A stretch of 64,000 nucleotides of DNA from Lysinibacillus pakistanensis. GTDB lineage: Bacteria > Bacillota > Bacilli > Bacillales_A > Planococcaceae. The stretch spans positions 4,090,501-4,154,500 of the forward strand of contig NZ_CP126101.1 in the NCBI RefSeq assembly GCF_030123245.1. Direction: 5' to 3'. A program made the translations under genes and the position numbers. This document shows positions 34,908 to 49,276 of this stretch, piece after piece (position 1 is the stretch's first letter; each line of letters begins with the position of its first letter). The notes beneath the pieces are model-generated. The model was given only the letters and a program-made list of their open reading frames with translations. It was not told the DNA's origin and searched no databases.

Positions 34908-37436
34908 CTAACGAATACCTTCTAATACATTTCTTTTTATAACCCAAATAGCTGGGAAAAGCACTGCAATAACTCCTACGATTGGAGAACTAATTATCAA
35001 TCCTAGCAATAGATTTGGTGTGATAATAATAGTCTCAGCATTCATGCCTAATAATAGGTTATAAGCTGAAAGAGTTGATAGAATCACTGAAAGTACACCA
35101 ACAGAGCCTGTCAAAAGTGCCCCCTCTAATACTAAAAGAGAGAATAGCCTTCCTTTTGTATAACCAAGCACACGTAGCATACTTAATTCTTGTATTCTTT
35201 CCTTAATACTGCTAGCTGTGCTGTTCATTAGACCTATAATGGTAAATATAATGATTAGCCCAACTGCTAAATATAAAATAAAAAAACGCTGTAAGAATTG
35301 TTCTTCTAATTCATTCAGTTCTTCTGCCCTATTATATAGAATTGTATTGGTATACTGTGGTTCTTGGATAAGTGATTGTATCTCTTCTATTGTTTCTGCT
35401 TGATCCGTTTCTGACTCTATATTCATTTCTACACTATAAAGTGTATTAACATCAAACATATCACCCATTATTTTTTTAGAAGTAAATATTTTGTATTCAT
35501 CACTAATATGTTTTGAATTAGTTATAATACCTTCCACAATAAAATCTCTCTTATCATCTCCATCTATATTTCCAAAGTTTTCACCCTCTATTACATCTCC
35601 TAATTGATACCCCAATTTCTTTGATGTATCCTCTGTTATCATTACTCCATTAGGACTTAAATCTTCTTCCAGACTTATTTCATCTTTAACCTTAACCTCG
35701 TTTCTATCCAAACTGTATTGTAAATTAATTCCGCTAATACTTATTAATATCTCATCTTGTACACCTTGTTTTAAAGGTAGATTTATTGTTTCGAATACTT
35801 TCTCATTTGTGTAGAAAAATGCCTCAATATTAGGCGTTTCATTAACAAGTTCATAAAAGGAAAAAGGGAAACCCTCTTCCACTTGGGACTTAATAGACAC
35901 TACTTTTAAGTCATTTGGATAAGTACTCATAATCGTATTAGTTGTGTACTCCTTAACAGTTGTTAAGACCACCATTCCTATAATAGTTATGATAATTCCT
36001 AAAGTAAAAATAACAGATATTTGTACATTTCTCCCCAATTGCCTCAGTAAATTTTTGGTAGCTAATAAGATTTCTGCTCTAACCTTTACCTTTCTATCTA
36101 AATAGCTTATTACTTTCTCAAATAAAACAAACATTAAAGGAATAGTAATAAATGATAATACTATAAATAAAACAGCATTAATAACATACATAATTCGTGA
36201 TTGCCAATACCACTGGTTACAAGCAAATATTATAGTTATTAATACAACATACAATGAACTAATTATGATATACCTTTTAGTAATATCTTGAGTGCTTTTC
36301 ACACCTCTATAAATAATAATTGGTGAAGACAAGCTTGCCATATATCCTGGAATGAGAGAAGATAAAAAGATAACTATAGTAAAAATTCCTAAACTAAGTA
36401 ATATATCTTGATACGGCAATACAATACCAGCATTTGGGACATTCATAAGCCCTAAGAAAAGATCAAGTGTGAAAAACGGGATGGAAATACCAAGAATAAT
36501 TCCTACTATTAAAGATACTAGGCCTAGAATCAATGTTTCAATTAGAACTAAAAACATAATGTGTTTTCTTCCAAAACCTAAAAGACGTAAAGTTGCAAGA
36601 TCCTTTTGTTTTTCCTGAATAGACATTCTCATCGTACTAATGAGGATTAATGCACTCACCAAGTAAATTGCAATATTGAGTCCCTGAACAAAAGGTCCCA
36701 ATCCTCCAATATTATTACGTTGGTTATCAACCTCTAATCGTTGATCGATAAAGAAATCTTGATTAAGCTTTTTCAATTGTTGAACAACATCAGCTTTCTT
36801 TTTAATGTCGTCTAACTTAACAATTAATGCCGTTGTTTTTCCTACATTCAAAGTGGCCTCCTGAAGCCAGTGAAAATCAAAAATAACCATATTGGATAAG
36901 CCTTCATCACCTTCGCTAAATCCGGATACTACCACTTTTTCTTTTCCATAGGGTGGAAAATTCATTTCTATAACTGAACCAATTTGCAAGTTCTTTAAGG
37001 TAGCATACGTGGGAGAAACTACAACTTCTCCTGCTTTCGGAAAATGTCCTTCTGCTATGGATACAAACGGATATTCATATGCCAGCTCGTCATTATTAAA
37101 ACCAACATAAATTGGTTCACCCCACATGTCGTACTCTTCTTCTTTATTTAAATATGGATAAAGAAATGGAGTTACTGTTTCTACTTCCTCCATATCCGTT
37201 ATCGTATTAAGTTCTTTATTAGTCAATGATTTATGACCATCTTGATAACCAACTACTAAGTCATAATCACCATGTATATCACTTATAGTTGTTTCATTTG
37301 ATTCTTGTAAACTACCAAGTAATATTTGTACAATTACGATAAGAGCAACGCCTAAAGAAATACCTAAAATTAAAAACGCATTTCTACCCTTATGACTTAA
37401 TAAAAAATTAATAGCTGCTTTAACTAATAAACTCAT
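34908..37436 (-). CDS. FtsX/MacB-type ABC transporter permease
   Basis: An 842-residue permease with eight to ten helices arranged as two FtsX modules around large extracytoplasmic domains, the layout of LolC/MacB/BceB-like exporters with a duplicated core. The N-terminus (ALIVIVQILLGSLQESNETTISDIHGDYDLVVG) is typical of this family. It overlaps the ATPase gene by 4 bp and is the last gene of the leftward lasso cluster. By analogy with RiPP clusters it may give self-protection or help release the product. It is not a classical lasso exporter; that role better fits the ABC half-transporter at 40248-41963. Confidence 0.85.
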   Translation of the reverse strand: MSLLVKAAINFLLSHKGRNAFLILGISLGVALIVIVQILLGSLQESNETTISDIHGDYDLVVGYQDGHKSLTNKELNTITDMEEVETVTPFLYPYLNKEEEYDMWGEPIYVGFNNDELAYEYPFVSIAEGHFPKAGEVVVSPTYATLKNLQIGSVIEMNFPPYGKEKVVVSGFSEGDEGLSNMVIFDFHWLQEATLNVGKTTALIVKLDDIKKKADVVQQLKKLNQDFFIDQRLEVDNQRNNIGGLGPFVQGLNIAIYLVSALILISTMRMSIQEKQKDLATLRLLGFGRKHIMFLVLIETLILGLVSLIVGIILGISIPFFTLDLFLGLMNVPNAGIVLPYQDILLSLGIFTIVIFLSSLIPGYMASLSSPIIIYRGVKSTQDITKRYIIISSLYVVLITIIFACNQWYWQSRIMYVINAVLFIVLSFITIPLMFVLFEKVISYLDRKVKVRAEILLATKNLLRQLGRNVQISVIFTLGIIITIIGMVVLTTVKEYTTNTIMSTYPNDLKVVSIKSQVEEGFPFSFYELVNETPNIEAFFYTNEKVFETINLPLKQGVQDEILISISGINLQYSLDRNEVKVKDEISLEEDLSPNGVMITEDTSKKLGYQLGDVIEGENFGNIDGDDKRDFIVEGIITNSKHISDEYKIFTSKKIMGDMFDVNTLYSVEMNIESETDQAETIEEIQSLIQEPQYTNTILYNRAEELNELEEQFLQRFFILYLAVGLIIIFTIIGLMNSTASSIKERIQELSMLRVLGYTKGRLFSLLVLEGALLTGSVGVLSVILSTLSAYNLLLGMNAETIIITPNLLLGLIISSPIVGVIAVLFPAIWVIKRNVLEGIR

Positions 37437-38185
37437 AAACTTAACCCCTCAATCTTAGAGGCTATTACTCTAACTACTTCATTATCCTTCAAACCTGAAT
37501 GTTTTAAATTTAAAGTATCACAGATTTTACCATCATGCATAAAAACTACTTTATCGGCGTAAGCTGCTACATTTGCATCATGCGTTACTACTATTAACGT
37601 GTGCCCTAGTTCCTCACAGAATTGACGTAAAATATTCATCATATCTTTAGAAGTTTTTGAATCAAGACTACCAGTAGGCTCGTCTGCTAAAATCAATTCA
37701 GGTTCATTAATTAAAGCTCTTGCGATAGCTACTCGCTGTTGCTGCCCTCCAGATAACAGTGAGGGCTTGGTATGAATATACGAACCTAAACCTACTAATT
37801 TTAAAAGTTCTATCGCTTTATTATTCACTTCTTCCTTTTTACTATTTGTTAGTAATGCAGGCATAGTAACATTCTCTAACACTGTCAAAACTGGTATTAG
37901 ATTGAAAAATTGAAAAACAAACCCTATTTTTTCACGCCTTAGTTGTGTTAATTTAGCATCATTATAATTATTTATATTTTCATCGCTAATTAGTACCTCG
38001 CCTTTGTCTACAGAATCTAATCCTGATATCATATTAAGTAAGGTCGATTTCCCTGAACCACTTGTACCCATAATGGCAACAAATTCTCCCTTACCCACAT
38101 TCAAATCTACCTCATCTAATGCTTTAACTTTATTATTTTCCTCACCGTACGTTTTTGATATACATTTTACTTTTAAGACTGACAT
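37433..38185 (-). CDS. MacB-type ABC transporter ATP-binding protein
   Basis: A 250-residue ATPase of the LolD/MacB class. Walker A is [12 protein letters not shown], the Q-loop [10 protein letters not shown] (family-typical), signature [15 protein letters not shown], Walker [13 protein letters not shown], and switch VVTHDANVA. It is coupled to the FtsX-like permease. Genes of this pair at the end of peptide clusters usually protect the producer or pump out peptides. It is separated by 60 bp from the VKOR-like gene. Confidence 0.92.
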
Positions 38186-38245
38186 GCTAAAACCCCCAAG
38201 TTATTGATTATCTGCAGGTTTAAGTATAAATATATTAAAACGATA

Positions 38246-38665
38246 TTAACTTATCTGTTCATCAATAAAACCTTTTTTATTAATACGTTTAATCTTATCT
38301 TTTACTTGTAAAAGCAAGGTAATTAAAATAATCAGAAAAGACAACAAACACCAAAAACAAAGTGTTTTAATAATAAATATGGAAATAATCATTAAATATG
38401 ATGAAAACAAAAAAGCTAAAATTAACGTCATAGTTAAAAAACGTTCTATTTTAAATATACTTAAATTTATCAAAGCAAGGTAACCAAATACACCTATTAA
38501 AGGAACAGGAATTCCTATTATCTTTGAGTATGGACTCATAGCTACCTCATCACATCCATCATTAGGACATATTAATATACCTTTATAAACTGAATAACTT
38601 ACTAATAAATATAAAGAAATTAATAGACCAATTATAAAAAAACTAATTCGGAGATTAGGCTTCAT
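38246..38665 (-). CDS. vitamin K epoxide reductase (VKOR) family protein
   Basis: A 139-residue membrane protein with four helices that should reoxidise a DsbA-like partner and pass electrons to quinone. All four redox cysteines of the family are present: the loop pair Cys33 and Cys38 (ICPNDGCDE) and the quinone-side CxxC as CFWC (103-106). The conserved SPYSKIIGIPVPLIGVFGY segment is also seen. It follows the two lasso precursors in the cluster, and a DsbA-like gene lies on their other side. It probably forms the disulfides of the four-cysteine cores. Confidence 0.88.
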   Translation of the reverse strand: MKPNLRISFFIIGLLISLYLLVSYSVYKGILICPNDGCDEVAMSPYSKIIGIPVPLIGVFGYLALINLSIFKIERFLTMTLILAFLFSSYLMIISIFIIKTLCFWCLLSFLIILITLLLQVKDKIKRINKKGFIDEQIS

Positions 38666-38692
38666 TTCATTACCTCCTATTGATGCAATAAA

Positions 38693-38720
38693 TACCGAAG
38701 AGTAAAAATACTCTTCGGTA
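38693..38720 (-). terminator. perfect hairpin after the second lasso precursor gene
   Basis: TACCGAAGAGTA (38693-38704) pairs perfectly with TACTCTTCGGTA (38709-38720) around a four-base loop (UUUU in the transcript). It lies 10 nt after the precursor stop and lacks a full U run, so partial termination or mRNA end protection is likely, giving more precursor than downstream mRNA. Confidence 0.7.
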
Positions 38721-38730
38721 ACGAATTATA

Positions 38731-38919
38731 TTAACATCTTCCATTTCCAGCTAATGTTGTGCAAATACAAACATTCTCTACTTTATCTGTACTAACATAT
38801 CTATATTGTCTATCTGAATCATTAAAGCCTAGGCCTTCAAGGCCCCAGCCTCCACATCCTTGAATTAAGTTAGTAGCTTGTCCATATTCAACTAATGTTG
38901 GTTCAGTATATTTTGTCAT
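38731..38919 (-). CDS. lasso peptide precursor A1
   Basis: I start at the ATG at 38919 (62 residues): GAGG lies 8 nt upstream, while an ATG two codons earlier (38925) would be only 2 nt from it. The leader MTKYTEPTLVEYGQATNLIQ has the YxxPxLxxxG pattern recognised by lasso B1 proteins. The predicted core begins at Gly21 with GCGGWGLE, so the Gly1 amine can bond to Glu8. It is 42 residues long, with cysteines at core positions 2, 31, 33 and 42 (VCICTT, NGRC). A FNDSDRQYR stretch is shared with the other precursor. The lasso Thr at -2 is replaced by Ile. Cleavage site and ring are predicted, not shown. Confidence 0.82.
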   Translation of the reverse strand: MTKYTEPTLVEYGQATNLIQGCGGWGLEGLGFNDSDRQYRYVSTDKVENVCICTTLAGNGRC

Positions 38920-38989
38920 TACCATTACCTCGCTTCAATTTTATAGTTTGTCTGATACACTATATTAAATATTCAGAATTTTATTATTA

Positions 38990-39181
38990 TTAAAGTTGCG
39001 GTTTACATTTAGTACCATCTAAACTTGTACAAATACACAATTTTCCACCCCCGCTGTAAATCCATCGATATTGTGAATCTGAACTGTTAAAAACTAGACT
39101 CTCAGTACCCCAGCCTGCGCATCCTTTAATCACATTTTCTGCATTTCCAAATTCAATAATTGTTGGTTTTGTATAATTCAT
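38990..39181 (-). CDS. lasso peptide precursor A2
   Basis: 63 residues, with AGGAGG 9 nt before the ATG, among the strongest ribosome sites in the cluster. The leader MNYTKPTIIEFGNAENVIK carries YxxPxIxxxG. The predicted core starts at Gly20 with GCAGWGTE (Glu8 for the macrolactam). It is 44 residues long, with cysteines at core positions 2, 30, 32 and 40 (KLCICTS, TKCKPQL). Identity with A1 is high in the leader, the ring (GC-GWG-E), FN-SD-QYR and CICT, while the segment between QYR and CIC varies. Two paralogues in one operon suggest two products or diversification. Confidence 0.85.
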   Translation of the reverse strand: MNYTKPTIIEFGNAENVIKGCAGWGTESLVFNSSDSQYRWIYSGGGKLCICTSLDGTKCKPQL

Positions 39182-39248
39182 TCCATTCTACCTCCTGAGT
39201 TTTTATTATTTTATTATATATAAAGCCATTTTTGGCATCAGACACAAG

Positions 39249-39896
39249 TTAGTTATCTGCGTTAAGTATAGTTAAAAAATTTTCAATATCTTTTGGCGCC
39301 CCATTGTAAATCCTTTCATTATATATTAGAATTGGAGTACCTATAGCGCCTAACGAATCAAATTCATCTTTAATATTTTTTAATTCTTTATCTATTTTTT
39401 TACTATCAAAACTTTTATCAAATTCATCTATATCTAGATTCAACTGTGCTGCATAATGATAAAAGATGCTTTCATCAATATCCTTTAACCAATCTTCATT
39501 TGAAAATAAAATTTCTTGCATTGATGTATATGCTCCTTGATCATGGGCTGCTAAAGCTGCTTTTGCAGCATTTTTGCTATTATGTTTTGATGTTCCTAAA
39601 TCCTTATAAGTAATACTAATAAATCCGCTCTCAATTAGTTTTGTTATTTCGTCATTTTCAGTCAACATATTGTGGAAATCTTTACAGGCTATACAATTAT
39701 AATCAGAATATACAATTAATTTATTCTCCGCCATTTCCTTCCCATTTACAATGCCAACATCTGAATTCAATATATAATCATCTTTTATTAGGTCACCTTC
39801 ACTATATACTTCAATAGTTGGATTAATAACACAATAATAGAAACCTGTTATAATTAGTAGGGATATACTAAGTACTAATGTTATTTTTTTTACCAC
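39249..39896 (-). CDS. membrane-anchored DsbA-like thiol oxidoreductase
   Basis: A 215-residue protein with one N-terminal membrane anchor (ITLVLSISLLIITGFYYCVI), an extracytoplasmic thioredoxin fold with CIAC at 68-71 (SDYNCIACKDFHNML), and the cis-proline loop GAIGTPILIYN. It resembles BdbD-type DsbA proteins that introduce disulfides into exported polypeptides. It is placed directly upstream of the precursors and opposite the VKOR gene, its likely reoxidant. It is in the same leftward operon (67 bp to precursor A2). Confidence 0.87.
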   Translation of the reverse strand: MVKKITLVLSISLLIITGFYYCVINPTIEVYSEGDLIKDDYILNSDVGIVNGKEMAENKLIVYSDYNCIACKDFHNMLTENDEITKLIESGFISITYKDLGTSKHNSKNAAKAALAAHDQGAYTSMQEILFSNEDWLKDIDESIFYHYAAQLNLDIDEFDKSFDSKKIDKELKNIKDEFDSLGAIGTPILIYNERIYNGAPKDIENFLTILNADN

Positions 39897-39898
39897 AT

Positions 39899-40228
39899 TT
39901 AAGCCTTCCTTTTTCGAGTTCTATACCACATAGAGCCACTAAATAATGTTAATAATAAAGTTGAGAAAGCTGTTACTACTAAGAAAAGGTTTTTATTATC
40001 TTTGTCAACACTCAATTGTTCAAGAACATTATCATCTACCTCTGCACTCGATTGTTCAAAGGAATCATCAGATGATTCTAGTTCACCATTACTTTCTCGC
40101 TCGGTCTGTAAAGATTCTACAAATTGATCATGAATTGCAATTTCAATTTGCTTTTCTCGTATAAATAAGGAAGTTGACAAAATTAAAATAATTAATGATA
40201 TAATCGTAATATATTTAAAAAACCCCAT
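39899..40228 (-). CDS. two-helix membrane protein of the lasso cluster
   Basis: A 109-residue protein not recognised as a family member. One membrane helix lies at each end (about 5-23 and 82-101), around an acidic, serine/glutamate-rich external loop with predicted coil, and the C-terminus is basic (RTRKRKA). It is encoded between the ABC exporter and the DsbA-like protein, 2 bp from the latter, so it is co-expressed. It could be an immunity protein or an accessory of the exporter or oxidation complex; this is only position-based. Confidence 0.65.
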   Translation of the reverse strand: MGFFKYITIISLIILILSTSLFIREKQIEIAIHDQFVESLQTERESNGELESSDDSFEQSSAEVDDNVLEQLSVDKDNKNLFLVVTAFSTLLLTLFSGSMWYRTRKRKA

Positions 40229-40247
40229 TATTAAAACTCACTCCCAA

Positions 40248-41963
40248 TTAGGCATAAATTTTATTGAATTCACTTTCTTTATCAGTCAATAGTGTTTCAT
40301 ATTTACCTCTTTCAACAATTTCACCATCTTTTAATACATAAATAGTGTCACAATCTTTTAATGTAGTTATTCTATGTGCGATAGTAATTACCGTCCTATC
40401 TTTAGTCAATTTAGTTAACGCAACTTGTAGGAAATGCTCTGTCTTAGTATCAAGTGCGGATGTAGCTTCATCTAAAATAATAACTTTAGGATTTTGTAAA
40501 AAAACTCTCGCAATTGCAAGTCTCTGTTTTTCTCCTCCCGACAATTTATAACCTCTTTCTCCTACGACAGTGTTGTATCCTTCGGGTAAAGACATTATTT
40601 TATCATGTATAAATGTATTTTTAGTTGCTGTTATTATTTCATTCTCAGTAGCTTCTTTATTAGCAATTTTTAAATTTTCCCAAATACTAGCATTAAGAAT
40701 ATATGGCTCTTGAACTATCATACCAACATTCTTATGATAATAATTGGTATCATAATTGTTTATATTTATACTTCCGATTGAGATATTTCCGCTGTCTGGT
40801 AAATACAATCTTGCTAATAAATAGCCCAAGGTCGTTTTACCAGAACCACTAGGACCCACAATACCTACTTTTTCTTTCTCATTTATCTCGATAGAAATAT
40901 TTTTCAATGTAGGAGTCCCTTCTTCATATGAAAAACAGACATTATTAATTAAGATTTTGTTTCCTTGCATATTTTTTATACCATCTTCGTCTGATTGGTA
41001 CGAGGGTAAATCTATATATTCGAAAAATCTTTCGAATACATATTTACTTTGTTGCAAAGTGATACTTAACTGTCCAATTTGTTGAATTGGATTAAATAGT
41101 GATGCAATATAGCCAGTAAAGGCTATCGCTGTACCAGCGGTAATTTCTAAAGCTCCTCCAGGTCTTCCGAACCAATATACTAGTAATGGAGCTAATGTTG
41201 TAGCCAGCATAAAAAAGTTATCATAGCCTATTGCAACATAAGATTGTTTCATAGTTAGATCTTTGACCGCAGTAATCTGTTCATAAAATTCTTGATTTAT
41301 TTCTTTTCTACGCCCATAAATTTTATTTAAAAGTACACCATTAATATTTAGATTTTTATGGATATAATTATTTAATTCTGTTATTGACTCAACTAACTTT
41401 TTACTAAATTTATAAGCGAATTTCCCTATAAATGGCAATGGAATAAATAATATTGGAATTATCAGTAATATAATTGTAGTTAATTTCCAGTTCAATGAAT
41501 ACATAACAACTATTGTTGCTAAGAGAGATAAAATTGTCTGTAAAGTATAGACAAATGGTTTTATTGCTGTATCTCCAATTGAATTGGCTTCTTCATTTAA
41601 ACGTGCAATCATTTCACCCATTTTAGTTTCTGTAAAAAAGCTAATTGGTTGCTCTTGTAACTTTGAATGTAAGTTTTCTCTTACATTTTTTGTTATTGTT
41701 GAAGTTAAAGAGATCATTGCTAAACTTTGAGAACCAATAACAAAAATTTGTAGAATACCAATCCCCAGTAACATAAGAACTAACGAAAAAAATGAATATT
41801 CACCATTTCCGCTAAAACCATTATCAATTAATTCCATTACGATAACAGGTGATAAGGGAGCGATAGCTGCATTAATTAATACAGTTAACAAAATCACAAA
41901 TAATATCCATTTTTTATTAACTAGTTTCAAAACTCTTTTCCATGTGAAATTATATTTATTCAT
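40248..41963 (-). CDS. ABC exporter (lasso peptide transporter, D protein)
   Basis: A 571-residue half-transporter with an N-terminal six-helix exporter domain fused to an ATPase. Walker A is [11 protein letters not shown], the signature LSGGEKQRLAIARVF, Walker B VIILDEATSALD, and H-loop TIAHR. No N-terminal C39 peptidase domain is present, consistent with leader removal by the separate B2 protease. Lasso clusters commonly include such an exporter, which also gives immunity. It is encoded between the MauE-like gene and the two-helix protein. Confidence 0.9.
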   Translation of the reverse strand: MNKYNFTWKRVLKLVNKKWILFVILLTVLINAAIAPLSPVIVMELIDNGFSGNGEYSFFSLVLMLLGIGILQIFVIGSQSLAMISLTSTITKNVRENLHSKLQEQPISFFTETKMGEMIARLNEEANSIGDTAIKPFVYTLQTILSLLATIVVMYSLNWKLTTIILLIIPILFIPLPFIGKFAYKFSKKLVESITELNNYIHKNLNINGVLLNKIYGRRKEINQEFYEQITAVKDLTMKQSYVAIGYDNFFMLATTLAPLLVYWFGRPGGALEITAGTAIAFTGYIASLFNPIQQIGQLSITLQQSKYVFERFFEYIDLPSYQSDEDGIKNMQGNKILINNVCFSYEEGTPTLKNISIEINEKEKVGIVGPSGSGKTTLGYLLARLYLPDSGNISIGSININNYDTNYYHKNVGMIVQEPYILNASIWENLKIANKEATENEIITATKNTFIHDKIMSLPEGYNTVVGERGYKLSGGEKQRLAIARVFLQNPKVIILDEATSALDTKTEHFLQVALTKLTKDRTVITIAHRITTLKDCDTIYVLKDGEIVERGKYETLLTDKESEFNKIYA

Positions 41964-41973
41964 CAGAATCCCC

Positions 41974-42375
41974 TCAAATTGTTACTACTATAATTGAGCA
42001 AGCAAAGAGCATTGTTAGATTTATGATAATTTTCTTTTTTGTAATTTTTTCTGGTGCATGTAATCCAAAGCAACCACAGCCAAATGGTAGAGTGCGATTA
42101 TAATTAAATAGCATCATTAATAAGAAAATAATTTGTAAAAAAATTGCAAAATACACCATGTAATTATAAATATCATCTATTCTCAATAACAGTGTCAAAC
42201 CAATTAATAACTCTAAAGGACCGATAAGAATAACTGGAACAATAAAAATTTTCTTTAAAAAAAAGAGATTATAACCTGATAATACTTTTCTAAACGCAAA
42301 AGGGTTCTTTATTTTACCAATGCTACTTTTTATAAAAATAAGACCAATAATTGCTCCAATTATAAATATAAACAT
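41974..42375 (-). CDS. MauE-like redox membrane protein
   Basis: A 133-residue protein with four helices and the hallmark FGCGCFG (Cys100, Cys102). MauE/DoxX-like proteins support cysteine maturation of exported proteins with a MauD-type thioredoxin. It starts 30 bp after the thioredoxin-like gene and precedes the exporter. In a cluster with VKOR and DsbA-like proteins a role in disulfide chemistry of the lasso peptides is probable. Confidence 0.82.
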   Translation of the reverse strand: MFIFIIGAIIGLIFIKSSIGKIKNPFAFRKVLSGYNLFFLKKIFIVPVILIGPLELLIGLTLLLRIDDIYNYMVYFAIFLQIIFLLMMLFNYNRTLPFGCGCFGLHAPEKITKKKIIINLTMLFACSIIVVTI

Positions 42376-42405
42376 TCTAGACCATCCTTCTTTTGTATTG
42401 GAGTA

Positions 42406-42816
42406 TTAACTCTGAATAAAATCTTCGAGTTCTTTTACTGACAATATCTTTTCATTTGCATTTATACTTTTCTTAACTACTCCATTTTCTATAATAAAGG
42501 CTGTTGGCGTACTTTTAACTTGATATACTTTAATTAGTTCATTAGTTTGTATCGGCTCTCTCTCATCTAATACATTTATTAATATAGAAGAATTAAACTT
42601 CTTTATTTTGTTTGACAAAAAATTTATTAATTTTATATTTGTCATTTCGTCATAAAATATTAGAATACCGTTAAAATTATCATTTAGTTTATCCTTATAA
42701 GTGCTTGGTAACGGTGTTCTCCCATTAACGAAAGTAGCACTTCTATAGTATGTACGTATTGAATATATTAAAGTTAGTAAAAATATTGTAATAGTTAATA
42801 TTGCAACGATGGACAA
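42406..42816 (-). CDS. thioredoxin-fold membrane protein without CxxC
   Basis: A 136-residue protein with an N-terminal membrane helix (AILTITIFLLTLIYSI), then a thioredoxin-like domain (GILIFYDEMTNIKLINFL...VKSTPTAFIIENGVVKKSI) with the cis-proline loop STPTAF. The place of the catalytic pair reads DEMTNIK and no cysteine is present in the protein. It overlaps the cyclase gene by 22 bp. It resembles MauD-type partners of MauE in context, but without redox cysteines a scaffold or binding role is more likely. Confidence 0.7.
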   Translation of the reverse strand: MSIVAILTITIFLLTLIYSIRTYYRSATFVNGRTPLPSTYKDKLNDNFNGILIFYDEMTNIKLINFLSNKIKKFNSSILINVLDEREPIQTNELIKVYQVKSTPTAFIIENGVVKKSINANEKILSVKELEDFIQS

Positions 42817-44582
42817 CTCACATCACCTACTTTTCTTTTTAACCATAGCTCTGCTTCTAATGTAGCAAAATAATCCATACCTTTACTCAATACTCCATGC
42901 TTGTACATTAACATTTGGTTTTTAAAATCCTCTAGGTTAATTATTCCTAACTCAGCTAATAAACTACCTCTATATGCTTTAGCAATAGTATCCCACTCGA
43001 TCTTAAAACCTTGAAAGAGCAATAGGTCATCAGAGGACTTTCCTTGTTGATCAAGAATTGGGTCTGGAACAATTCCCCTCATTGAGTTTCGTAGTAGAAC
43101 TTTAGTAGTAGCGTTGTTTATTTTTTGATGAATTGGAATATTATACAAAAACTCTACAAGTTCCCTGTCTAGAAAAGGAAATCTTACTTCCATTCCTAAT
43201 GATTCAGCTATCGATCGAGTCATTGTGAAGCCTTGGCTTCTTTGTATATATTTAAAACTATTATTTATTTTTGATTTAAAAATTTTTTTATTTTTCTTAC
43301 TTAAAATAAAATTATTAGCATATTCACTTAACACTGGTGATTTTTCATCTGTGTTAAAAAGACCTTTAATTCCATAATTTCTAATTACGTAGATAAGAGT
43401 TTCATTTCTAAAGCGAGCTAGTTTTTTAGATTCGTTAAAAAAACCTATGATGTTTAAATTTCTTAAATCATTTGAAATATACTCAGGATTGTAGCCAAAA
43501 ACTTGATCCCCAGCATAGCCAGATAACACGACAGTCGCACCACCGTTTTTAGCTGCTTTTAGATTCTCATGAACTAAACTATAACTCAATGTATTTATAC
43601 AAGGTTCATCTAATATCTTATGTTGAAAATAATTTTTTAGTATCCATAGTTCGTCACTTATAATAAATTTATGATTTTTTTCCCCATACTGATCTAATAT
43701 CAGTTTTATATAGGGTCTTTCATCATCTTCCTTATATATATCGTAGACGTTAGATACAGGGAATACTTCTTCGCCTCTTAACTGTTTTGCTATACCATAT
43801 ATCGACGTGGAATCTAATCCACCACTCATCATAATAGAAACTTTACCGTATGTATTACTTTGGTTAAGAATGACTTTGCTAAAAATATCCCTAAAATGTT
43901 CCACATAATCAGAACTTCTTTTATAATTAATTGGTTTATAAAGTAATTCCCAGTATACATTCTTTATCAATTTCTCTTTTGAGATTTCAAGATAGGTTGC
44001 TTTTTCCACCCTAAAAATATTATTAAAAGGAGTTTGTATATTCGGAGGTGTAGCTTGATTATAAATATAGTCGATAAAGTACTCTTTGTTAAAACTAGTT
44101 GTCTCCTGCAACATTTCTAGAAACTTCAATTCAGTTGAAAAGAATAAGTTATGACCTTCTTTCATATAAAATAAAGATTTCAGCCCAAAAGAATCCCTTG
44201 CAAGAAAACATAGATTTCTTTGTTTATCAAATATAAAAATTGCAAACTCTCCATTTATATATTTTAAAAAATCTATTCCCCACTTCTTATAACTATGTAA
44301 TATTATTTCTAAACTCTTACTCTGGATACATTTTAGGTTCTCTTTTAATCCATCGAGGTTGTCGATACGTAAATCAGCAATTACTAATAAATCTTTGTCA
44401 TTATAGATACTTTCTTCATTTCCTACTACATCATTATGATTGTTTAAGCCTATCAAGAAGGATTTGTCCATTTCAATGGTATCGTTAAAAAGTTCTCTAC
44501 TCCAGATTTGTAAAATTTTATCTTTAGGAATAGATTCATTATTGAGATTAATAATTCCTGAAAATTTCCCCAATTTAATCAC
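42795..44582 (-). CDS. lasso cyclase (asparagine synthetase-like, C protein)
   Basis: A 595-residue protein with an N-terminal glutamine-amidotransferase-like domain that lacks the catalytic Cys2 (MIKLGKF), and a C-terminal ATP-pyrophosphatase domain with the PP-loop SGGLDS at 253-258. This combination, next to B1 and B2 genes, is the signature of the enzyme that adenylates a side-chain carboxylate (here Glu8) and closes the macrolactam. It overlaps B2 by 4 bp and the thioredoxin-like gene by 22 bp. Ordinary asparagine synthetase is ruled out by the missing Cys2 and the context. Confidence 0.9.
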   Translation of the reverse strand: MIKLGKFSGIINLNNESIPKDKILQIWSRELFNDTIEMDKSFLIGLNNHNDVVGNEESIYNDKDLLVIADLRIDNLDGLKENLKCIQSKSLEIILHSYKKWGIDFLKYINGEFAIFIFDKQRNLCFLARDSFGLKSLFYMKEGHNLFFSTELKFLEMLQETTSFNKEYFIDYIYNQATPPNIQTPFNNIFRVEKATYLEISKEKLIKNVYWELLYKPINYKRSSDYVEHFRDIFSKVILNQSNTYGKVSIMMSGGLDSTSIYGIAKQLRGEEVFPVSNVYDIYKEDDERPYIKLILDQYGEKNHKFIISDELWILKNYFQHKILDEPCINTLSYSLVHENLKAAKNGGATVVLSGYAGDQVFGYNPEYISNDLRNLNIIGFFNESKKLARFRNETLIYVIRNYGIKGLFNTDEKSPVLSEYANNFILSKKNKKIFKSKINNSFKYIQRSQGFTMTRSIAESLGMEVRFPFLDRELVEFLYNIPIHQKINNATTKVLLRNSMRGIVPDPILDQQGKSSDDLLLFQGFKIEWDTIAKAYRGSLLAELGIINLEDFKNQMLMYKHGVLSKGMDYFATLEAELWLKRKVGDVSCPSLQY

Positions 44583-44998
44583 TCCCTTCTTAAATTAAAA
44601 GTATTAAATTGAACACTCAATTTTTCCACAAACTCCGGTGCATCATTTATTACTTGACCATTAAATTCTAGCCATGCATGTGATATAAAAGGTTTCTTAC
44701 TGACACCTATAACTAAATCAATAGGTAATTGTTTTTTTCTAAATATATGATAAGCACTCACTGATCGATGTAAACACCTTGCTTCATTAAAAAAGAGTAA
44801 GCATGTATCTTCTACCATTTTTAGTATTTCTTTTATATAATCTAAGTCAATTTCCGTTAAATCCCTTAATGGAGGTAATGTGTCTTTAATTAAATACTCT
44901 TCATTAACATAACTAAATCCATATTTTTTTAAGTTTCTATTAAAACTTAAAACAGTTTTATATACTAAAAATCTATTAATAACCCTACTCATGCACAT
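44579..44998 (-). CDS. lasso leader peptidase (B2 protein)
   Basis: A 139-residue transglutaminase-like cysteine protease that removes the leader before cyclisation. The triad is visible: Cys75 (ARCLHRS), His107 (SHAWLEF) and Asp119 (INDAPEF). Size matches the separate B2 proteins of Gram-positive lasso clusters. It overlaps the B1 gene by 14 bp and the cyclase by 4 bp, so the three are tightly coupled. Confidence 0.92.
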   Translation of the reverse strand: MCMSRVINRFLVYKTVLSFNRNLKKYGFSYVNEEYLIKDTLPPLRDLTEIDLDYIKEILKMVEDTCLLFFNEARCLHRSVSAYHIFRKKQLPIDLVIGVSKKPFISHAWLEFNGQVINDAPEFVEKLSVQFNTFNLRRE

Positions 44999-45248
44999 GT
45001 ACCAACTTCAATTGATTTAATTTTGTAATAAACTTTTTTACGTCTATAGCAACTTTTGTCTCTTCAACATTATATATACGTGCAATCTTATTAACTATAT
45101 TAGAAATATGCTCATTATTTTCCAGTAAATTCAAAATTTCCGTACCTACCTCGTCAACACCATAATATTTACCATCATCAACATTGAGTAGTACACTTTC
45201 TCCCTCGATGATGGTTAATTTCACTGAATTATTAATTGTATATTTCAT
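44985..45248 (-). CDS. lasso leader-binding protein (B1, PqqD-like)
   Basis: An 87-residue RiPP recognition element of the PqqD fold (ESVLLNVDDGKYYGVDEVGTEILNLL). It delivers the precursor to B2 through the leader's YxxP motif. AGGTGG precedes the ATG at 45248. It is the first gene of the leftward cluster, facing comX across 286 bp. Confidence 0.9.
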   Translation of the reverse strand: MKYTINNSVKLTIIEGESVLLNVDDGKYYGVDEVGTEILNLLENNEHISNIVNKIARIYNVEETKVAIDVKKFITKLNQLKLVHVHE

Positions 45249-45391: not shown

Positions 45392-45401
45392 AATATATCC
45401 G

Positions 45402-45430
45402 TATATTCCGCCATTTTCTAGCGGAATATA
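45402..45430. promoter_or_regulatory. perfect 10-bp inverted repeat, candidate operator
   Basis: TATATTCCGC (45402-45411) and GCGGAATATA (45421-45430) are exact inverse complements separated by 9 bp. Placed between the divergent lasso and com promoters, 34 bp upstream of the candidate comX -35. It is not the Bacillus ComA box (TTGCGG-N4-CCGCAA), but the GC core and dyad form suit a LuxR-type dimer such as the encoded ComA-like protein. Confidence 0.6.
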
Positions 45431-45463
45431 CCTATTTAACAATATTTGATATAAATATAATAT

Positions 45464-45534: not shown

Positions 45535-45699
45535 ATGAATGGACAATTATGGGAAGTTATTCAATTATTTAAGAAAAAAAAGGAGCTTACTATAGAGGAT
45601 TGGATCTACGCAGAATCAGTACTAGAGCCAGAGGTAGTTCAATTATTAGCATTACAACGTGATGGAAAGATGGATATAGGCTCACCAGGTTGGAAATAG
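45535..45699 (+). CDS. comX: ComX-type pheromone precursor
   Basis: A 54-residue ORF with AAGGAG 11 nt upstream. The sequence begins MNGQLWEVIQLF and ends MDIGSPGWK, with a tryptophan next to last. ComX precursors have this length, a conserved helical N-terminal part and a C-terminal Trp that is isoprenylated by ComQ, then cleaved to a short peptide. It overlaps or abuts comQ and is followed by comP and comA, which makes the assignment firm. The order comX-comQ differs from the comQ-comX order in Bacillus subtilis. The modified tryptophan would be Trp53. Confidence 0.85.
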   Translation: MNGQLWEVIQLFKKKKELTIEDWIYAESVLEPEVVQLLALQRDGKMDIGSPGWK

Positions 45700-45701
45700 A
45701 T

Positions 45702-46631
45702 ATGCGTACTACTATTCAACTTATTATTAAAGATATCTTACTTACCAGTGGCTTAGAGTATGATATCCAAAAGCTTACTTTACAATTATTACATCAAAGT
45801 GGGAAAATATTTAGTCAAAATAAAGAGGATTTTACTTGGGGAGAATTTTCTTACTATGTATTCTCTCTCTTAACTGAAACTGAGGTATCGCATACTACAA
45901 AAATGAAACAAGCTGCTGGGATTGAATTATTAATGTTGGCTACAGATTTATTTGACGATGTTATAGATCATGACAACAGTTTAGACACTCCTATTGCCAA
46001 ACACCAATTATTAATGATTGGAAATTTATTACTAGTGGAGGCATTGCATTTGCTAATGCCAAATACTGCTTCCTCTACAACAGATCGATTTGCTATTATT
46101 CACCACTATTTACGCACTGCTGGTAATGGGCAATGGCTAGATTTCCATCTTACTATGGAACATCCAGCAGCAACAGAGGAGCAGTATTTTCATATTGTCC
46201 AACAAAAGTCTTGTTCATTTCTACAACTTATATTTGAATTACATAGTTCAACTGTTCCATCTCCTATTTTGCAAGAAATCGCTATTTATATTGGTTACGG
46301 CGCACAACTTCAAAATGATATACGCGATATTTTTGCTGATCATAAAAGTGATTTACTTCACCAAAAAGCTACACTTCCTTTAATTAAAGCAGTACAGCAT
46401 AGTAATACATATGATCATGGTTGGTTATTGAAACAGCTACAATTAATCCGTAGTCAAGATGTAGCTACAAAGCATTTAACTACAATTAGAGAGTATATAT
46501 ATCAAACAGGAGCTATTGACTACTGCTCTATTTTAGCAAAATATTATACAAAAAAAGCTAAATCATTATTACAACACTATTTTAATGATAAATCACCCTA
46601 TATAAAACAGATTATTCACTTAATAGATTAG
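45702..46631 (+). CDS. comQ: ComQ-like isoprenyl transferase
   Basis: A polyprenyl synthetase-fold protein of 309 residues from the ATG at 45702, with an in-frame TTG at 45690 as alternative. The first aspartate motif is DLFDDVIDHD; the second is degenerate LQNDIRDI. ComQ proteins transfer a geranyl or farnesyl group to the ComX tryptophan and help its processing. It starts 2 bp after comX, so it should be coupled to it. Located at the membrane/cytosol interface by analogy. Confidence 0.87.
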   Translation: MRTTIQLIIKDILLTSGLEYDIQKLTLQLLHQSGKIFSQNKEDFTWGEFSYYVFSLLTETEVSHTTKMKQAAGIELLMLATDLFDDVIDHDNSLDTPIAKHQLLMIGNLLLVEALHLLMPNTASSTTDRFAIIHHYLRTAGNGQWLDFHLTMEHPAATEEQYFHIVQQKSCSFLQLIFELHSSTVPSPILQEIAIYIGYGAQLQNDIRDIFADHKSDLLHQKATLPLIKAVQHSNTYDHGWLLKQLQLIRSQDVATKHLTTIREYIYQTGAIDYCSILAKYYTKKAKSLLQHYFNDKSPYIKQIIHLID

Positions 46632-46647
46632 AGGAGAATTCATTATA

Positions 46648-48684
46648 TTGTATCAGCGTATTTTATTATTTCTTGTCTTGTCTAGTCTTTGGATTTTCGC
46701 AGTTATCCGCACACAACCTTTTCATCTAGTCGATGCACAAATCCATCGCAATGACTACCTTAATGCGATATTGCTTATTTTATATAATCATTCAACAAAT
46801 TTTATTGGTCTATTATTTTTATGCATTGGCTTTTACGCTTATCTAAAAAAGCCTAAAGCTATGATTGTTCAACGTTTTTTTCAATTGATGTGTATCACTG
46901 GTATAGCCATAACTTATGCTAAACTATCAAGTTATCAAATTCAGATTGCATCTTCCATTGAAACATTGGCAATTAGTCTAGCACCTTTTTTTCTTATGCA
47001 TTTTTTTGAATACTTTCCTATCCCTAAAGCAAGAAATCATTTATCATTCTTTAAATGGTTAACTTTAATAATAGCGATAACGATTACTATTTTAGACATA
47101 GTTCTATTAACACCTTGGGCGGCAACTCTTATACCGATTATGATCATTCTCAATATTTTGATTTCCATTATATTATGTAGCTATTTTCTTAGTAGGCAAT
47201 GGTTGTCACATACAAAATGGGTGCAGAATCAATTGCGTATATTGGTCATTAGCCTTGTCCTATCTTTTACACCTGTTTTAATAAGTATGATTCAACTCTC
47301 TATTTTCCATCTTCCAAGTGTGCCCTATGAATTTTCGATTATATCCATTACTCTGTTCCCTATTGCACTTGCTTATTTATTAACAAAACAGGAAATTATA
47401 AATTTCAGTTACCTTATCAGACAACTATTTCCTGTATTTTTAGCCTGTCTGATCACATCTGCTATCTTAATAGGATTATTACAATTTTCTACTCAACAGT
47501 TCACAGCCTTTATCGTTGGTGGAGGAATATTCACATTTTTTTACAAATCATTTAAACACATCGAAGAAAAGCAGATGGTGGCAAAGCTTCAAGCCATCCA
47601 GCAAGAAAAACAGCATATTTTCAACCAAATGAATTCAGAAGCATTTTTGCCTATCTGTGCTAAACGTATTGCACAATTACTTCATAAAATGTTTGATGTA
47701 GAAGGTGTATGTATCATATGGTCACAGCCTACTCCAGCAATTCTTTATGATTCAGGCTTATTTCAACATTCTCCAACAGCTCAGCAAGATATACAATACT
47801 ACCTACAACAACAGCAAAATCATACTGAAATTTTGAAACAATCACTTTACCACACACTGCCGCTAAGTAATGGTACAGAAATTAACGGTATTATTATTGT
47901 AGGTCGCAAAAGTAATTTCACCAAGTGGGAAAAAGAGGAGCTAACATTACTAAAAAATATTCATGTAGAGGCAGTACAATTATTTGCTAGTGCACTAACC
48001 ATCCAAAAAATAGATAAAATTACACAGGAGGCACAACAAACCTCACAGCAACTTACAAACTATAATCGACAATTACTAGAGGCGATCGAGGAGGAGCGTA
48101 AACAATTATCACTTTTTCTTCATGATGATGTTTTACAGCAACTATTATTAGTAGTACGTAAAATACAGATAGGTTCAGTTGACACAATCGAGCAGCCGTT
48201 AGTAGAAACTATTACAACTATTCGTACTATGTGTCATGATTTGCATCCAATAATGGTGGAAGATTTAGGGCTCGGTTTAAGTATCCAGTCCTTACAGCAA
48301 AAAATTCAACAACAACACGCTATTGATGTGCACCTAACATATGATATAGATGATGAACGTATCCCCTCTTTTTTTGCAGTTCACTTATTTCGTATGCTAA
48401 AGGAGCTCCTTAATAATAGTATAAAACATGCAGAAGCAACATACATTCATATCGCTCTTTACGATAAACAGCATGAGCTAGTAATGGTTGTAGCTGATAA
48501 TGGAAAGGGCTTTGCTATTCCTGAACAACAGACATTACATGCAGGGGAACACTTTGGATTGTTGACTATTCAAAAGAAGGTAGAGCAACTAGATGGGGAA
48601 TTTATAATAGAATCCCAGTTCAACCAACATACAACCGCTACAATCACATTACCATTGAAATGGAGTGAACAGCATGTCCATTAA
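46648..48684 (+). CDS. comP: ComP-like sensor histidine kinase
   Basis: A 678-residue kinase. About eight to ten N-terminal helices (residues 1-300) form the pheromone-sensing part. A GAF-like region follows, then a HisKA_3 phosphorylation motif EEERKQLSLFLHDDVLQQLL and a HATPase domain (ELLNNSIKHAEAT, VADNGKGFAIP, GEHFGLLTIQKKVEQL). TTG is the start with GAGGAG 11 nt upstream. It overlaps comA. It detects extracellular ComX and phosphorylates ComA. Confidence 0.9.
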   Translation: MYQRILLFLVLSSLWIFAVIRTQPFHLVDAQIHRNDYLNAILLILYNHSTNFIGLLFLCIGFYAYLKKPKAMIVQRFFQLMCITGIAITYAKLSSYQIQIASSIETLAISLAPFFLMHFFEYFPIPKARNHLSFFKWLTLIIAITITILDIVLLTPWAATLIPIMIILNILISIILCSYFLSRQWLSHTKWVQNQLRILVISLVLSFTPVLISMIQLSIFHLPSVPYEFSIISITLFPIALAYLLTKQEIINFSYLIRQLFPVFLACLITSAILIGLLQFSTQQFTAFIVGGGIFTFFYKSFKHIEEKQMVAKLQAIQQEKQHIFNQMNSEAFLPICAKRIAQLLHKMFDVEGVCIIWSQPTPAILYDSGLFQHSPTAQQDIQYYLQQQQNHTEILKQSLYHTLPLSNGTEINGIIIVGRKSNFTKWEKEELTLLKNIHVEAVQLFASALTIQKIDKITQEAQQTSQQLTNYNRQLLEAIEEERKQLSLFLHDDVLQQLLLVVRKIQIGSVDTIEQPLVETITTIRTMCHDLHPIMVEDLGLGLSIQSLQQKIQQQHAIDVHLTYDIDDERIPSFFAVHLFRMLKELLNNSIKHAEATYIHIALYDKQHELVMVVADNGKGFAIPEQQTLHAGEHFGLLTIQKKVEQLDGEFIIESQFNQHTTATITLPLKWSEQHVH

Positions 48685-49276
48685 AGTATTATTAGTAGAT
48701 GACCATTTATTATTAGTAGAAAGCCTAAAAACAATACTAGAAGCTGAGCCAACTATTCACGTAGTTGGTACGATCACTGACCCCTCGCAACTTTTAGAGG
48801 ATATCTTGTCATTACAGCCTGATGTACTCTTAATGGATATTCGCATTAAGACATATAATGGGCTAAACTTAACAAAAGCTATTATAAAAAGCATACCCAC
48901 GATGCCGATTATTATCTTATCCGGCTACGATGATGATGCCTATATTCAAGCTGCACAAAATGCTGGAGCTAAAGCCTTTATAAAAAAAGAACAGTCTAAT
49001 GAGGATTTAATTGCGACAGTGAAGAAGGTCTATGCGGGATATACTTTGTTTCCTTCCTTCGAAAAAACACTACTTACACCAAAAGAACTAGAAGTTTTAC
49101 AGCTTATTGTAGCAGAAAAAACAAGTGAAGTTATTAGTAAAGAGCTTTCTATTAGTAAGAGGACTGTAGAACATCATATTTCCTCTATTCTACGAAAACT
49201 GGGTGTTCAATCACGTGTAGGTGCTGTTGTAAAAGCACTGGAACAAGCCTTAGTTAATAACACAGAAAGGCCGTAA
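48674..49276 (+). CDS. comA: ComA-like response regulator
   Basis: A NarL/FixJ-family regulator of 200 residues from the ATG at 48674 (GGAG 8 nt upstream; an earlier GTG overlaps that site). The receiver has VDDHLLL, the phosphorylated aspartate in VLLMDIRIKTYNG and the lysine in AFIKKE. A LuxR HTH follows (LTPKELEVLQLIVAEKTSEVISKELSISKRTVEHHISSILRKLGV). Likely targets are its own locus and possibly the divergent lasso cluster. Confidence 0.9.
   Translation: MSIKVLLVDDHLLLVESLKTILEAEPTIHVVGTITDPSQLLEDILSLQPDVLLMDIRIKTYNGLNLTKAIIKSIPTMPIIILSGYDDDAYIQAAQNAGAKAFIKKEQSNEDLIATVKKVYAGYTLFPSFEKTLLTPKELEVLQLIVAEKTSEVISKELSISKRTVEHHISSILRKLGVQSRVGAVVKALEQALVNNTERP

Follow-up and report, generated by a model that had tools for sequence, protein, structure and literature searches.

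How can lasso-peptide enzymes serve precursor cores that carry four cysteines and run to 42 and 44 residues? This question is raised by a lasso-type gene cluster of Lysinibacillus pakistanensis, found on the minus strand at 38246-45248 of a 64,000-nucleotide stretch of contig NZ_CP126101.1 (positions 4,090,501 to 4,154,500; hereafter the window, whose numbering is used below) from a 5.25-Mb genome assembled as a single contig. In lasso biosynthesis, a recognition element (RRE) binds the YxxP leader, B2 cuts the leader off and the cyclase C closes the ring. The cluster comprises B1, B2, a cyclase, an exporter and two precursors, together with a redox set (Trx1, MauE, DsbA and VKOR) that an earlier note on this DNA did not mention. 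That the cluster is real and belongs to a family of long lasso-type peptides, rich in cystine, in Bacillota is well supported by our data, and we consider it probable that it makes two lasso-type ribosomally synthesized and post-translationally modified peptides (RiPPs), with long cystine-rich cores, a ring, and disulfides that are oxidised outside the cell. Its genes are as follows:

44985..45248, minus strand: B1, PqqD-like RRE, leader-binding (PF05402, 3.8e-15; NF033536, 6.4e-16, under its cut-off)
44579..44998, minus strand: B2, leader peptidase with Cys75/His107/Asp119 (NF033537, 60.4 bits; cut-off 33)
42795..44582, minus strand: C, asparagine-synthetase-like lasso cyclase (PF00733, 3.1e-33; NF033535, 5.2e-73, under its cut-off)
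42406..42816, minus strand: Trx1, thioredoxin-like, one N-terminal hydrophobic segment, no Cys (weak PF13098, 0.11)
41974..42375, minus strand: MauE/DoxX-type membrane redox protein, CGC at 100 (PF07291, 1.8e-15)
40248..41963, minus strand: D, ABC exporter (PF00664 and PF00005)
39899..40228, minus strand: small protein with two hydrophobic segments (counterparts at the same place in loci L156, L112 and L110)
39249..39896, minus strand: DsbA-like oxidase with an N-terminal membrane anchor and a CIAC active site (PF13462, 4.6e-20; PF01323, 2.9e-8)
38990..39181, minus strand: precursor A2, 63 amino acids (aa); core at 38993-39124, 44 aa
38731..38919, minus strand: precursor A1, 62 aa; core at 38734-38859, 42 aa
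38246..38665, minus strand: VKOR with four Cys (33, 38, 103, 106) (PF07884, 3.5e-20)

Read down the minus strand from 45248 to 34908, the order is B1-B2-C-Trx1-MauE-D-small protein-DsbA-A2-A1-VKOR, followed by an ABC ATPase/FtsX pair; the successive overlaps in B1/B2/C/Trx1 are 14, 4 and 22 bases, and the later gaps down to A1 measure 2-67 bases. The combination expected of a lasso RiPP, namely an RRE in B1, a Cys/His/Asp peptidase in B2 and an Asn-synthetase-like cyclase, thus stands beside the precursors, with only B2 scoring over its NCBIfam cut-off. More specifically, cyclase C (for which TTG at 44573 is, by eye, a possible start) carries SGGLDS at 253, and its first cysteine is residue 85, so that the N-terminal glutaminase Cys is missing. 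The earlier note had described a PqqD-like B1, a B2 with Cys75/His107/Asp119 and a cyclase without Cys2 in one overlapping unit, and the Pfam and NCBIfam matches, a residue check and the B1/B2/C overlaps of 14 and 4 bases agree with it on every count. Leader removal by D through a C39-type peptidase was also considered and rejected, as no C39 match was obtained at E values up to 1.

Both precursors combine a leader of the [Y/W]xxP type (YTEP and YTKP) with a core that has Gly1 and Glu8, in keeping with the lasso pattern of a first residue joined to Asp or Glu at positions 7-9. The 42-aa core begins GCGGWGLE, with Cys at positions 2, 31, 33 and 42, and the 44-aa core begins GCAGWGTE, with Cys at 2, 30, 32 and 40; residue -2 is Ile in both, in place of the usual Thr. 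No second acidic residue was found at core positions 7-9 in 29 aligned precursors, and a degenerate leader-plus-ring pattern matched the two precursors and nothing else in the 64 kb (0 of 100 shuffles). Leaders, ring residues, core lengths and cysteine positions had all been read correctly before; for A1, precursor and core stand, and only the start moves, most likely to 38919 (62 aa) rather than 38925, a choice based on ribosome-site spacing judged by eye and on database entry P0001, which begins at the same place.

The earlier note had regarded the cluster as an isolated case and had suggested looking for similar precursors beside lasso genes; that search revealed relatives in Bacillota, and the cluster is now seen to belong to a family with a longer Cys3 branch. 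A1 alone retrieved two proteins (itself and one relative), a five-row alignment 20 and a 29-row alignment 45; altogether, 64 distinct precursors were gathered (53 from protein searches and 11 from loci), of which three short rows (P0004, P0016 and P0053, with 2, 1 and 1 Cys) were set aside as truncated, leaving 61 full-length sequences. All 64 begin the core with G-x4-G-x-E (Gly1, Gly6, Glu8) and have exactly one ring cysteine, located at position 3 in 53 and at position 2 in 11, and at -2, 61 have Ile, 2 have Val and 1 has Thr. Six cysteines are present in 36 full-length precursors, four in 25 and an odd number in none; as the precursors are kin gathered by similarity, the constancy of the motif searched for is in part a product of how they were found, but the even cysteine count is not. 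Full-length cores measure 39-67 residues (31-59 after the ring), those of the Cys3 branch being longer (50-67) than those of the Cys2 branch, and the invariant part of the tail is its three cysteines, which lie near the C-terminus. A Cys3 precursor (P0038) also occurs in Lysinibacillus irui, a species for which the consulted part of PMC11166776 reports a putative novel lasso cluster, giving no precursor detail.

Within the family-level sample (261 genomes, which also constitute the order-level sample), an A1-only search hit 15 genomes at E up to 0.1, with true precursors just in the window, G136, G038, G036 and G051; a motif scan of the remaining loci from that search yielded no such precursor. 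In an 84,980-species collection, the leader-plus-ring pattern gave 26 matches: 10 family members from Bacillota, all close to lasso genes or MauE (Bacillus sp., Lederbergia, L. macroides, Caldalkalibacillus, three Paenibacillus, Alkalibaculum, Virgibacillus and Lihuaxuella), 3 actinobacterial sequences and 13 judged to be chance. Six viral-contig matches of the pattern were dismissed as chance, the adjacent DNA having no match to cluster genes.

To what extent do these precursors travel with redox genes? Scores above the cut-off of NF033537 (B2) came from 11 of the 261 genomes of the family sample, 55 of the 398 of the class sample and also 1 of 14 control genomes, and 61 such lasso loci served as the background set (the window, 10 of 10 family places and 50 of 64 class places; the other 14 class places all exceed 91 bits, as in the paeninodin-type B2 examined). 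MauE was present in 9 of the 61 loci, all 9 with a long Cys precursor. Among the 52 MauE-less loci, 47 had another kind of precursor, identified by motif search or by eye, and 5 (L104, L105, L108, L119 and L131) had no readable one, giving a Fisher p of 1.3e-10 on 9/0 versus 0/47, uncorrected for ancestry. Consistently, a precursor profile run against 7,329 open reading frames (ORFs; those shorter than 35 aa were left out of the locus lists) produced 11 matches, exactly in the 9 MauE loci, with the next best at E = 0.009; the matches in the 9 loci arise partly by construction, whereas the absence from the other loci does not. Likewise, leader-like ORFs with at least three Cys in the putative core numbered 0 in the 52 MauE-less loci. 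Precursors of another appearance were seen in L102, L103, L128 and L129, which have lasso precursors lacking YxxP, with KKSKPGDGK(F/H)GRG cores that, we presume, recall triculamin/lariocidin.

In a cyclase tree (n = 63), the 13 family cyclases fell on one side of a branch with a Shimodaira-Hasegawa-like approximate likelihood ratio test (SH-aLRT) value of 97 and split into a Cys2 group (3) and a Cys3 group (10) with values of 99 each; the method was a fast one that gave long-branch warnings for non-members, and L110 and L099 were included as partial sequences. L042 and L047 were called members by their precursors, the MauE site lying beyond the DNA covered. At L099 (9326-14394), a DDE transposase ORF on the reverse strand breaks up the cyclase ORF, and the precursor is preceded by an ISL3-type transposase; this cluster is probably dead.

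The two branches differ in their redox genes. The Cys2 branch consists of the window, Caldalkalibacillus L110/L030, Lihuaxuella L112/L048 and the Priestia megaterium plasmid locus L156 (NZ_CP085449.1, 60000-73010), the last with the same gene order and set as the window, and follows the order B1-B2-C-Trx1-MauE-D-small protein-DsbA-A(s)-VKOR; DsbA and the small protein, which has no NCBIfam family match in the window, occur in 4 of 4 loci and VKOR in 3, the contig of the remaining locus stopping 81 bases past A. The L156 precursors have FxxP leaders, and both are annotated merely as hypothetical proteins. The Cys3 branch shows the order B1-B2-C-A-Trx1-MauE1-MauE2-Trx2-D-ABC-FtsX in L098, L100, L101 and L123 (the final FtsX gene was scanned in L098 only and assigned by eye in the other three); A precedes B1 in L116, L035 and L023, and in L116 MauE2-Trx2-D come after the FtsX gene. 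A Trx2 with CxxC and a second MauE were found in all 9 Cys3 loci covered that far (L098-L101, L116, L123, L026, L044/L158 and L046), in whose covered DNA neither DsbA nor VKOR gave a match; the MauE2/Trx2 stretch of L023, L035, L042 and L047 lies outside the DNA covered. In all 9 aligned loci, in turn, Trx1 has no CxxC where the active site would be, other Cys pairs being CPxC elsewhere in L110 and L112 and CLSC in the N-terminal hydrophobic segment of L101. Each branch would so possess its own catalytic pair for oxidation, the two pairs differing in origin, in addition to a conserved degenerate Trx1/MauE pair.

From the genes, their conservation and their linkage, we propose a pathway in which the ring, the threading, the cysteine pairing, the sequence of the steps, what each redox protein does and the product's role are all predicted. 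B1 would bind the YxxP leader, and B2 would cleave behind Ile(-2)-x. In the cytoplasm, with the cysteines still reduced, Gly1 would be joined to Glu8 by the cyclase, whereupon D would export the product. As DsbA and VKOR work at or outside the membrane, we expect oxidation to follow export: there, the anchored DsbA would turn four Cys into two disulfides, VKOR would re-oxidise DsbA, and MauE and the Cys-free Trx1 would form an accessory pair. Since there is one ring Cys, pairing of all cysteines within one molecule would leave exactly one ring-to-tail (or ring-to-loop) disulfide, i.e., one ring-to-tail and one tail-tail bridge in the window's products, and one ring-tail and two other bridges in the six-Cys relatives. 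The 8-residue ring with a disulfide-bonded tail reaching the ring Cys, as suggested before, therefore gains support from the constant Gly1/Gly6/Glu8 and single ring Cys (64 of 64), the even cysteine number (61 of 61) and the redox linkage. As for the leader cut, Ile(-2) in place of Thr has been validated for BsfA of another lasso pathway (PMC10368454). The product may act as a bacteriocin.

Do the redox genes make the disulfides? They might instead serve export or immunity, with the disulfides forming spontaneously. According to PMC9266682, sviceucin and MS-271 are still made without SviF, MslE or MslF, and loss of SviF shifted where sviceucin was found; the missing active-site CxxC of Trx1 would also fit spontaneous formation. 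However, the window's DsbA and VKOR keep the cysteines typical of catalysis, Trx2 keeps its CxxC in 9 of 9 Cys3 loci, and from one branch to the other one catalytic pair takes the other's place, a swap that speaks for oxidation as the function retained. We hold spontaneous formation to be doubtful, though still to be reckoned with.

Is the tail threaded? Macrolactam and disulfides could form with the tail unthreaded, so that lasso enzymes would make a branched-cyclic miniprotein locked by cystines: no sequence rule used here proves threading, and 31-59 residues after the ring with two or three disulfides could hold a fold without a knot. Yet the family cyclases fall among lasso cyclases, and PMC13352647 states, in the part consulted, that some lasso peptides with C-terminal fusions still mature, so that long tails are compatible with threading; an unthreaded product is in our view unlikely. 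That an extra protease trims the tail to leave an ordinary lasso peptide, as host carboxypeptidases are mentioned to do for other lasso peptides (PMC13352647, in part), is very improbable given the three invariant tail Cys near the C-terminus and B2 as the sole peptidase gene seen among the cluster genes. The shared YxxP also led us to consider an LPP-type RiPP (SpI peptidase), which we rejected: the leaders do not follow the LPP consensus YxxPxVLxHQxIxFETxxS (given in the consulted part of PMC13381572), and the peptidase encoded in the window is a Cys peptidase of the B2 type.

Several points weigh against a long, threaded product with enzymatically formed disulfides. The NCBIfam models for cyclase and B1 match below their own cut-offs (246.7 of 525 and 58.3 of 80, respectively), the family members are related, making the precursor counts non-independent, and the family is thinly spread, a precursor-profile search of the phylum sample hitting 1 of 398 genomes, the window's own. 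Nor is a long predicted core unique, as a core of 41 residues with two Cys is predicted for the paeninodin-type, non-family L148, and rumen predictions reach 42 residues (PMC7533575, in part). AlphaFold modelling of precursor A1, run with eight family members, was uninformative (mean predicted local distance difference test score, 46.7), and no earlier case of a threaded ring followed by 31-59 residues was found in the literature searched. Finally, in class I clusters deletion of the DoxX/Trx genes left the disulfides forming, with SviF seeming relevant to export, and mslE and mslF mutants gave product in lower yield, without thiol intermediates, as far as PMC9266682 was seen; because these deletions still gave product, the redox genes may be auxiliary, helping rather than essential.

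How does the family relate to known lasso peptides? Class I (sviceucin, MS-271/siamycin I and aborycin) resembles the window in its four Cys, two disulfides (predicted in the window), split B1/B2, and clusters with a DoxX-type and a thioredoxin/DsbA-type gene (passages of PMC6409603 and PMC9266682). It differs in Cys1, an Asp9 ring, Cys1-Cys13 and Cys7-Cys19 bonds from ring cysteines and, for aborycin, a 21-residue core; the family, in contrast, has Gly1 and one ring Cys throughout, Glu8, cores of 39-67 residues and an extra VKOR or second MauE. Class III (BI-32169) has the ring-tail disulfide that is predicted for the family, but has two Cys and that single bond, whereas every one of the 61 full-length family precursors has 4 or 6 Cys. 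Class IV (LP2006 and pandonodin) has a tail disulfide, as predicted for the family, but again has one only and no ring Cys, which every family precursor has. The actinobacterial lasso precursors L025, L032 and L039, which we liken to LP2006, have a GxxGWGxE ring as in the family, with Thr at -2 and short cores. As described in the consulted part of PMC9266682, the clusters of LP2006 and pandonodin lack an additional redox gene, and felipeptins have a putative oxidoreductase, FilE. Paeninodin-type peptides of the same phylum likewise have split B1/B2, but differ in a mostly WxxP leader (the window's are YxxP), Cys-free or two-Cys cores of ~20-35 residues (one of 41) and no MauE. Two such precursors, at L144 7782-7934 and L148 7440-7619, carry two Cys after the ring in predicted cores of 31 and 41 residues, with no MauE, and are possible class IV peptides of Bacillota. 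Outside lasso biosynthesis, the window's pair of thioredoxin-like and MauE membrane proteins resembles MauD/MauE of methylamine dehydrogenase maturation, in which MauD is thioredoxin-like; that system has another substrate, and the window's Trx1 has lost the active-site cysteines. A disulfide role of MauE has been speculated upon in work on other RiPP candidates (PMC7794033, in part).

The predicted pairing, with one bridge leaving the ring and the rest outside it, would fit none of classes I-IV as listed in the consulted parts of PMC9266682 and PMC13352647. Whether this pairing marks a fifth lasso disulfide class across Bacillota we regard as evenly balanced; such a class would combine 39-67 residue cores, an 8-residue ring, a single ring Cys bonded to the tail, one or two further disulfides and a dedicated oxidase pair swapped in evolution (DsbA/VKOR in Cys2, CxxC thioredoxin/second MauE in Cys3) beside a conserved Trx1/MauE whose Trx1 lacks the active-site CxxC. 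No prior description of the family was found in the literature searched; the surveys of Tietz 2017 and Kretsch 2023, which lay outside that search, may list some of the sequences.

How might the cluster be expressed, and what adjoins it? The following features were noted:

45535..49276, plus strand: ComX-Q-P-A-like block of pheromone candidate, prenyl synthase, histidine kinase and LuxR regulator (PF00348, PF02518, PF00072 with PF00196)
45401..45431, strand not assigned: inverted repeat GTATATTCCGC...GCGGAATATAC in the promoter region from which B1 and the ComX candidate diverge
38693..38720, minus strand: stem-loop of 12 pairs with a T-rich tail, attenuator/terminator-like, directly after A1 and before VKOR
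37433..38185, minus strand: ABC ATPase, MacB/LolD-type, possible immunity or export (PF00005, 7.8e-37)
34908..37436, minus strand: FtsX-type permease, partner of the ABC ATPase (PF02687, PF12704)

The ComX-Q-P-A-like block is transcribed away from the cluster and suggests quorum control of it; the ComX candidate, which precedes ComQ, gave no family match and was assigned by position and C-terminal Trp only. The core pattern of the inverted repeat occurs once in the 64 kb and in 0 of 100 shuffles, and the repeat is a possible operator; promoter-like matches showed no excess (45, versus 47.8 in shuffles). The stem-loop is placed as if raising precursor over downstream expression, and terminator-like sites in the same search numbered 5 in 7.1 kb versus 1.8 expected. 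An ABC ATPase/FtsX pair of like type also adjoins clusters of relatives.

A 2026 review calls the mechanism of lasso disulfide formation unknown and gives pandonodin, 33 residues in total, as the longest-tail lasso peptide (PMC13352647, in part). Earlier knock-outs were ambiguous (PMC9266682, in part), and this family, being compact, having redox modules that are complete and swapped between branches, and showing an even cysteine number in every full-length precursor collected, makes the disulfide question directly testable. If threaded, the Cys3 products, at 50-67 residues, would far exceed pandonodin and would constitute a stable scaffold of protein-like size.

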